From contig CALGMA010000026.1 in assembly GCA_937959265.1 (NCBI GenBank), positions 53,369 through 117,368 of the forward strand: 64,000 nucleotides of DNA, given 5' to 3'. A program made the translations under genes and the position numbers. Source of the DNA: an uncultured Anaerolineae bacterium (GTDB lineage Bacteria; Chloroflexota; Anaerolineae; J036; Brachytrichaceae). Of this stretch, positions 1 through 60,457 are shown in pieces (within the stretch, counting starts at the first letter, position 1; each line of letters starts with the position of its first letter). Below the pieces are notes generated by a model. The model saw nothing but the letters and a program-made list of their open reading frames with translations. It was not told the DNA's origin and searched no databases.

Positions 1-1407
1 CAGGATGCCCTGCGATTCGATCGCTGTCCGTAAGTCGTGCTGGGCGCGTTCGGCGTAGGCTGCGCCGCGCAGCCGCTTATCGCGCGGTGGCTGCGCCAGC
101 GGCGGCAAGATGCCGAAGTTCGCTTTCATCGGCTGGAAGTGCTTTGGCTCCGCATGCGCGATGTAATGGCATAACGCGCCGAGCATTGTCGTGGGCGGCA
201 GCGTGACCAATGGCTCACCGCGCAGCGCGCGTACGGCGTTGACGCCGGCCAGCAGTCCAGTGGCCGCATTGCCGACGTAGCCCTCTACGCCGACGATTTG
301 GCCCGCGAAGAAAATCGCGCATCGAGCATCGGGGATTGAGCATTGATGGCGTGCGAGACGATCCCCCCGCAATTGCAGCGTGGCGCTCAGCAGCGTGGGG
401 GAGTTGATGAATGTGTTGCGGTGCATTTGGCCATAGCGCACGAACTCGGCGCGTTGCAGGCCGGGGATCATGCGCAGCACGCGGTCCTGCTCGGAGAACC
501 TGAGGTTGGTCTGGAAGCCGACGATATTGTAGAGCGTGCCGGCGACGTTGTCCTGGCGCAGTTGCACCACGGCGAACGGCCGCTTGCCGGTGCGTGGGTC
601 GCGGATGCCCACCGGCCGCATCGGCCCAAAGGCCAACGCATCTTTGCCGCGCCGCGCCATGACCTCGATGGGCAGACAGCCCTCGAAGAAACGCTCGTCG
701 CGCAGCTCGAAGTCGCGCAGAGTCGCTGTCTCAGCCGTCGTCAGCGCCTCGATGAAGGCGTAGTACTCTTCCCGCGTCATCGGGCAATTGATGTAGTCGC
801 CTTCTGCCGGTTGAGGCTCGGGACGCGCGCTGCCGTTCCTACCGCCCTGTGTCTTGCCATAGCGCGAAGCGCGAAAGGCGATGTTGAGGTCAATCGAATC
901 GAGCGTCACGATCGGGGCGATAGCGTCCCAGAAGTAGAGATACTCGCCGCCGCTCAGTCGGGCGATCTCGGCCGCTAACGCATCCGAAGTGAGCGGCCCG
1001 CTGGCGATCACGCTGATGCCCCCTGGAATGCGCGTTGCTTCCTCGCGGATCACTTCGATGAGCGGGTGCGACTCAATGTGGCGGGTCACCTCCAGCGCGA
1101 ATAGTTCGCGGTCTACGGCCAGCGCGCCGCCAGCAGGCACCGCCGCGCGCTCGGCGCATGCCATGATCAACGAGCTGAGCATGCGCATCTCGCGTTTGAG
1201 CAGCCCGGGCGCCTTATCGTCCTGATCGGCGCCCAGTGAATTGCTGCATACGAGCTCGGCCAGATGGCCGGTGGTGTGCGCCGGCGTCATCCTGTGCGGG
1301 CGCATCTCGTACAGCTTGACGCGCACGCCGCGCTGGGCGATCTGCCATGCAGCCTCCGTGCCGGCCAGGCCGCCGCCAATCACAGTGATCCAGTCGGTCT
1401 CGTGCAT
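1..1407 (-). CDS. trmFO: Methylenetetrahydrofolate--tRNA-(uracil-5-)-methyltransferase TrmFO (3' end beyond left edge)
   Basis: Minus-strand reading frame open from ATG at 1407 to window edge: [37 protein letters not shown]...[11 protein letters not shown]...HRNTFINSP...[27 protein letters not shown]. Absent from the supplied ORF track because no stop lies in the window. Confidence 0.93.
311..345. repeat. Degenerate heptad array inside trmFO
   Basis: AAAATCG CGCATCG AGCATCG GGGATTG AGCATTG. Confidence 0.8.
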
Positions 1408-20176: not shown

Positions 20177-21865
<1,689 letters not shown>

Positions 21866-59395: not shown

Positions 59396-59497
59396 CACTG
59401 GGCCCACCTGGTTGACCCCGAGTCCGATTGCTGGACGCCTCCTCTTTGACCTCGTCGCGTGCCGTGCATACAATCACTGTGCCACACAGACGGCTTT

Positions 59498-60457
59498 ATG
59501 GACCTCTACGATCCACAGTGCACGCGCCGCCCGGATGCGTCGTTGCTGTATCGCCGCAATGATGCGAACGATGTGCGGTTAGGTGAGGTCGTTTGCACGG
59601 ATGCCGCAGATTACGCCAGGGCGCAGGTCGTGATACTGGGCTGCCCGCAGGACGAAGGTGTGCAGCGCAACAGCGGCCGACCGGGTGCGGCGCTCGCCCC
59701 GGCCGAGATTCGTCGCTACCTCTACCGCCTGACGATCAACGGCTTGGAAGATCTCTGTCTGTTCGATCTGGGTGATACACTGATCCAGCCCTCGCTCGAG
59801 GAGACGCATGCGCTGCATCAATGCATCGTCCGGCAGATCATCGAGGATGGCAAGCGCCTGGTCGTGCTCGGCGGCGGCAACGACATTGCGTATCCCGATT
59901 GTGTCGGGCTTGCGCAGGCAGCGGGTGAGGTGCTCGCTTTCAACGTGGACGCACACTTCGACGTGCGAGCGGATGTGCCGCGCAACAGCGGCACATCCTA
60001 CCGGCAGTTGTTGGAAGAGGGCTTCATCCGGCCAGCGCGCTTCTATCAGGTCGGCTATCAACCCTTCGCCAACTCGCCCATCTACGAGCGCTACCTGCGC
60101 GGCCTCGGCGTCCATCTCATCGGCCTGACCGATCTGCGCTGTCAGGGAATCGAGCCCATGCTTGCCGCTATTCTCGATTCTGAATTTTCGATTCGCAATT
60201 GCTTTTGGGGCTTCGACCTCGACGCCGTCTGCACCGCCGAAGCGCCGGGTGTGAGTGCACCGAATCCGATCGGCTTGACAGGCGACGAACTATGTCGAAT
60301 CGCGGAGATCGCTGGCAGTGACCCGCGCACGCGCATCGTCGAGTTCACCGAGGTCAACCCGAACTACGACGTGGACGGGCGCACCGCGCGGCTGGCGGCG
60401 GTGGCTGTCTGGCGTGTGCTGGCCGGCCTCGCTCGGTGCCTACACGTGGGATCTTGA
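59498..60457 (+). CDS. Arginase/agmatinase/formimidoylglutamase family ureohydrolase
   Basis: VVILGCPQDEGVQRNSGRPGAALAPAEIRRYLYRL...LVVLGGGNDIAYPD...VLAFNVDAHFDVR...FWGFDLDAVCTAEAPGVSAPNPIGLT...VEFTEVNPNYD. Confidence 0.9.
   Translation: MDLYDPQCTRRPDASLLYRRNDANDVRLGEVVCTDAADYARAQVVILGCPQDEGVQRNSGRPGAALAPAEIRRYLYRLTINGLEDLCLFDLGDTLIQPSLEETHALHQCIVRQIIEDGKRLVVLGGGNDIAYPDCVGLAQAAGEVLAFNVDAHFDVRADVPRNSGTSYRQLLEEGFIRPARFYQVGYQPFANSPIYERYLRGLGVHLIGLTDLRCQGIEPMLAAILDSEFSIRNCFWGFDLDAVCTAEAPGVSAPNPIGLTGDELCRIAEIAGSDPRTRIVEFTEVNPNYDVDGRTARLAAVAVWRVLAGLARCLHVGS
60168..60202. repeat. Degenerate heptad array inside the ureohydrolase gene
   Basis: CTATTCT CGATTCT GAATTTT CGATTCG CAATTGC. Confidence 0.75.

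Follow-up and report, generated by a model that had tools for sequence, protein, structure and literature searches.

Among heptanucleotide repeats, the cyanobacterial STRR repeats have mainly served as fingerprinting targets. The heptameric repeats GGGAATC of Xanthomonas and GGGGA(C/T)T of Nostoc are degenerate, dispersed, and mostly intergenic, with in-gene shares of 7-11% and about a third, respectively, and the over-representation of heptamers in bacteria has been noted since 2007, its cause being unsettled (PMC4692102). TAACTGA direct repeats have been reported in marine Beggiatoaceae, cyanobacteria, and Bacteroidetes (PMC4679880). A search of the openly licensed literature returned no report of heptad repeats in Chloroflexota. 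In-gene copies elsewhere have mostly been reported as a minority or as peripheral, whereas the arrays described here enter essential enzymes and add short flexible loops.

The window, the whole stretch of 64,000 nucleotides analyzed in this study, derives from an uncultured Anaerolineae bacterium whose closest named relatives, among the matches listed, were Thermoflexales, Anaerolineae, and Candidatus Roseilinea MAGs. An intact trmFO gene occupies positions 1-1407 on the minus strand; its frame exits the start of the window and comprises 490 codons in the contig. The product matched TIGR00137 over its full length (632 bits, curated cut-off 428.65) with conserved motifs intact, as well as Thermus TrmFO 3g5q at 1e-133. 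Within this gene, five consecutive 7-mers lie at 311-345 on the plus strand (AAAATCG, CGCATCG, AGCATCG, GGGATTG, and AGCATTG) with invariant A4, T5, and G7 and the core AT(C/T)G (ATYG), exactly as the original prediction had described them; the sense strand of trmFO reads CTCAATC CCCGATG CTCGATG CGCGATT TTC over the array. The array codes for roughly TrmFO residues 355-366 (12 residues), and the residues ARH, quoted in that prediction as part of the encoded stretch, are located upstream of it. The first unit overlaps the conserved Ile-Phe codons and, taken alone, is weak evidence.

This was the sole ATYG heptad array with three or more units within the window. Under a first-order Markov model, the expected number by chance was 9e-6 per 64 kb window for a five-unit array (both strands) and 0.06 per genome for a four-unit array. 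The ATYG motif was picked by eye and post hoc, and its recurrence across the genome is the stronger, independent test: the four-unit pattern gave 29 matches in the window's own 4.0 Mb genome (about 15 sites once overlaps were merged by eye) versus two for the reversed-pattern control. Additionally, a GCG-rich trinucleotide tandem array at 21768-21838 (about 24 copies, 79% matches) was the strongest tandem repeat of the window.

The heptads lie in a loop of TrmFO (loop 1, the stretch from the HRNTFIN.P.LL motif to (I/L)FFAGQ), which covers residues 341-364 (24 aa; positions 316-387, minus strand) according to ortholog and structure comparison and an AlphaFold model. In most other Chloroflexota families and in genus g3 the same loop has 11 residues, and it is also clearly shorter in the aligned Thermus TrmFO 3g5q. 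The expectation that few residues normally occur here and that about 12 had been inserted is borne out as to the insertion, and its size is amended to 13 residues, the surplus over the usual linker. Of the nine genus members searched, eight had long loops of 24-34 residues (25 in G006 and 34 in G004) and the ninth, G007, had 14; the eight formed one group (support 87/89) in a TrmFO tree computed with the loops left out. Among lags 3-14 in the loop 1 DNA, lag 7 was the top lag in seven of the eight clade members; in the eighth only its harmonic, lag 14, ranked higher, and in none of five genomes outside the clade was lag 7 the top lag. The clearest heptad copies were those of G001 (ATTCTCAATTCTCAATTCTCGATTTTCAATT) and the window's genome; in the remaining clade members, the loop had decayed, mostly to GC-rich sequence, with its length unchanged. 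G006 retained little heptad signal in loop 1, yet carries the most arrays of the genus in the grammar search. Restriction of the insertion to one lineage, as had been proposed for checking, thus holds at the level of a single clade but not of this genome alone. Conserved orthologous sequence of equal length, which would mark the stretch as ordinary protein sequence, was absent from distant orthologs, and close orthologs share the length with mostly diverged sequence and a preserved lag-7 signal.

The AlphaFold model of TrmFO had a mean pLDDT of 80.7, and only residues 185-201 and 354-359 fell below 50. The latter are inside the array and the former inside a second expanded loop (loop 2, residues 185-204, 20 aa; positions 796-855, minus strand), which was delimited by comparison and low pLDDT and has 6-8 residues in several other genera. 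Heptads in loop 2 were forward and inverted in G006, partial in G001, and not clearly recognizable in the window's genome. In G006, loop 2, which follows RYG, is far longer and carries heptads both ways, so that heptads have entered two loops of the same enzyme.

If TrmFO loops simply varied freely in length, the heptad appearance would be a chance product of a repetitive coding stretch. The loop 1 of other genera of the same family, with 13-22 residues and no heptads, shows that the site tolerates insertions generally, but the chance expectation is far below one and the same type of array recurs genome-wide and in orthologous loops, so that we regard ordinary length variation as very improbable. 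The loop 1 array instead appears to be an old, partly decayed insertion that is not specific to the window's genome, because the long loop is common to eight of nine genus members and lag 7 is the top lag in seven of eight. The simplest history suggested by these comparisons would be a single array insertion before the clade split, followed by decay, although separate gains are possible, given the modest basal support (87/89) and the differing loop lengths (34 residues in G004, 25 in G006).

The TrmFO array is one copy of a dispersed, degenerate seven-base repeat family of this Chloroflexota lineage. In a lag test that disregards which unit is repeated (threshold, 17 of 21 matches), four 200 kb samples of G006 contained 16-27 arrays at lag 7 versus 0-4 at lags 4-6, 8-11, 13, and 15; lag 14 is a harmonic, and lag 12 reached five in one 200 kb sample. 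The same test found no lag-7 arrays in 200 kb each of the array-poor genomes G013 and G053. In the window's own genome, a sample of 400 kb contained five arrays at lag 7 and six and seven at lags 9 and 12, respectively, so that the period-7 excess of this genome shows in the pattern search and not in the sample. Genome-wide counts were obtained from pattern searches and samples of 400-800 kb. Relatives had up to 390 four-unit ATYG matches versus 0-1 for the control, and the heptad grammar was matched in 32 of 60 relatives, with large differences between sister species. Exact seven-base tandem units above chance, genome-wide dispersal, and intergenic enrichment, all of which characterize heptameric simple sequence repeats, were thus found. 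Within the genus, members had between almost none and more than 300 pattern matches, and array number rose with genome size (Spearman 0.86, n = 9, rounded sizes).

The YYYRAYY grammar was rejected as a test of layout and only ranks genomes, since with the doublet AA many arrays are hit by the grammar and its reversed control alike. G020 had 390 four-unit ATYG matches in 3.5 Mb and few by the YYYRAYY grammar, indicating that another unit type dominates there. Also, in genus g2 (G009, G021, and G025) the reversed control pattern outnumbered the query, which suggests that another heptad unit type prevails; the fourth member, G016, had none.

On the pyrimidine-rich strand, the units of G006 included CTCAATT, TCCAATC, CTTGCGT, TCTAATC, and TCTGACC, among others, and in long arrays the units shifted gradually while a single register was kept. 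The cyclic class RRYYYYY accounted for 50 of 123 arrays versus 24 expected from shuffled units, a descriptive figure, as the class was spotted in the same data in which it was counted. Among the 14 pairs of neighboring arrays in 800 kb of G006, ten had the purine-rich arm first, one was reversed, and three had the same orientation. Four chosen pairs folded as strong DNA hairpins (z -6.1, -4.9, -4.0, and -3.2).

These features bear on the main rival explanation, in which the arrays are the remains of a mobile palindromic element, that is, of hairpin units (purine-rich arm, spacer, and pyrimidine-rich arm) moving whole in the manner of MITEs or Rickettsia palindromic elements, with slippage editing the arms only. 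The purine-first order of ten of 14 pairs, the strong folding of several of them (z -6.1 to -3.2), and the arm-spacer-arm layout that relatives show in their PriA, GalT, and TrmFO loop 2 inserts would all suit such an element. Most arrays are single, however, with 14 pairs among about 120 arrays, and the units of the arms vary from element to element and often from one arm to the other. Inspection of the arrays, informal with respect to duplications, revealed no common core or target duplication, so that the conserved core, ends, or target duplications that define Rickettsia palindromic elements and MITEs were not recognized, and the TrmFO array of the window itself formed no hairpin on folding (z +0.8). 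Overall, we consider a mobile hairpin element unlikely.

Of the 89 arrays in 800 kb of G006, 42 were intergenic, 36 lay within predicted genes, and 11 were situated at gene edges, although about 89% of the bases are coding; these in-gene counts depend on a home-made codon-usage gene finder. Genes are thus strongly depleted of arrays but still frequently contain them. The in-gene arrays of G006 were in frame and mostly internal rather than terminal, and their hosts included PriA, GalT, Mfd, and isoleucyl-tRNA synthetase, so that in-frame insertion into unrelated protein genes, a property of Rickettsia palindromic elements and MITEs, is shared. PriA carries an insert directly before Walker A, with 29 residues and facing heptads in the window's genome, 54 residues in G006 and G001, 22-24 in several other genera, and longer stretches in g7 and g8; its alignment to solved homologues sets in with the Walker A segment, directly behind the array. 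In GalT, which has extra residues at its array compared with solved homologues, the loop contains heptads in G006, G001, G004, and partly in the window's genome; in G002, G008, and G005 it consists of decayed sequence of equal length. The homologous loops of PriA and GalT thereby repeat the TrmFO pattern, in which the baseline loop is short, some species have heptads, and others have decayed sequence of the same length. Isoleucyl-tRNA synthetase has about 18 extra residues at its array compared with the best solved homologue, and the Mfd array falls outside the parts aligned to PDB chains, where a claim of insertion is unsupported. One TGA was observed inside the galT match of G017.

The window contains a second in-gene array at 60166-60200 on the plus strand (CTATTCT CGATTCT GAATTTT CGATTCG CAATTGC), which encodes ILDSEFSIRN within a putative arginase/agmatinase-like gene (59459-60457, plus strand) named by motifs only. 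Heptad DNA also occupies the corresponding site of the arginase-like gene in G006. In G006 and G004, a TGA was present within the matched region of this gene, possibly reflecting a frameshift, a pseudogene, or chance. The suggestion that a repeat-generating process can enter an essential-type gene without loss of frame is supported by these data, as the arrays are dispersed and in frame in many genes, including essential ones. Selection is the best explanation for the intact frames, since genes are strongly depleted of arrays.

The heptads might alternatively be functional elements, namely binding sites for proteins or regulators selected at the DNA or RNA level wherever they are located. The shared unit layout (the RRYYYYY excess) and the regulatory roles proposed for TAACTGA repeats (PMC4679880) are compatible with this, but arrays at homologous sites decay while the gene is retained, counts fall from over 300 to almost none in one genus, and the locations include the interior of unrelated enzyme genes, which makes such a function improbable. 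Addition of heptads by a template-copying enzyme, such as a reverse transcriptase acting like telomerase, would account for a constant period with changing units. A RVT_1 domain was not found in G006, G000, G002, G008, G020, G009, and G021, array-rich genomes included, but was present in the array-poor G012 and G019; this largely refutes a reverse transcriptase of the RVT_1 type, the only type covered by these figures, as the writer of the arrays, and template copying in general seems scarcely credible. Two further candidates were rejected: loss of mismatch repair, as mutS was present in all 28 genomes tested, array-rich or array-poor, and an RNA intermediate, to which a richness in transitions among the unit differences had pointed, as the transition/transversion ratio between neighboring units was just 1.34.

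Taken together, we consider it probable that a member of a dispersed heptad family was inserted in frame in an ancestor, with slippage-type growth, decay, and selection on the survivors. An array of about 39 bases would have entered a surface hairpin loop of trmFO, in frame and stop-free, in the ancestor of eight of the nine searched genus members, lengthening loop 1 from about 11 to 24 residues as shown by comparison, and would then have decayed by substitution at rates differing among lineages. Replication slippage or unequal exchange probably lengthens the arrays seven bases at a time, which would keep the register while units drift. They may start anywhere, and selection would purge those that break the frame or hit structure, consistent with the observed depletion, leaving survivors in genes that are in frame and in tolerant loops. 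The added residues look like tolerated ballast, for which function is not required. Pure slippage does not explain the seeding at many sites, the shared purine/pyrimidine layout, or the facing neighbor arrays. The weak heptad signal in loop 1 of G006, despite its many arrays, also speaks against this reading. It is conceivable, though doubtful, that a dedicated process rather than simple slippage, active in one sister species and inactive in another, writes the arrays with their shared layout and head-to-head preference and has extended loops in essential enzymes again and again.

A single genus that spans almost none to over 300 matches and offers clear before and after states in orthologous essential genes allows direct tests of how such repeats are seeded, grow, decay, and are tolerated by proteins. 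It also illustrates, in concrete cases, how enzyme loops become longer through short repeats.

Compared with known systems, the arrays resemble the STRR repeats as seven-base tandem arrays dispersed in the genome, a likeness that concerns array organization. With the repeats of Xanthomonas and Nostoc they share the seven-base period, degenerate units, dispersal, and a mostly intergenic location with a minority in genes, and GGGAATC/GGGGATT read CCCGATT/CCCAATC on the other strand, a layout as in the Chloroflexota units (PMC4692102). One main unit per genome is described for Xanthomonas and Nostoc, whereas the Chloroflexota arrays comprise many unit types; genes hold 36 of the 89 arrays of G006, as against 7-11% of the repeats in Xanthomonas and roughly a third of those in Nostoc; the latter two kinds of repeat were shown to form G-quadruplexes, whereas the Chloroflexota units are mostly without G-runs; and no insertion into conserved enzymes was noted for them (PMC4692102). 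The TAACTGA repeats share the seven-base period, short arrays, a stop-codon-limited orientation in genes, and some locations in or near genes for essential products, but they comprise one unit and few related heptamers, cluster immediately before start codons, and in ORFs occur mainly at protein ends, whereas the Chloroflexota arrays are internal to enzymes (PMC4679880). Rickettsia palindromic elements likewise occur in frame in many unrelated protein genes and are tolerated by the proteins, although they are about 150 bp long, fall into defined families, and encode a conserved peptide, whereas the Chloroflexota arrays are tandem heptads with no fixed core (PMC10969869). The tandem repeats of Borgs also create flexible protein segments, but they are extrachromosomal and archaeal and, in genes, strongly selected for perfect amino-acid repeats, unlike the degenerate, chromosomal arrays of Chloroflexota (PMC9879509). 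Among known systems, the heptamers repeated in Xanthomonas, Nostoc, and Beggiatoaceae come closest, as do the Rickettsia palindromic elements with respect to in-frame invasion.
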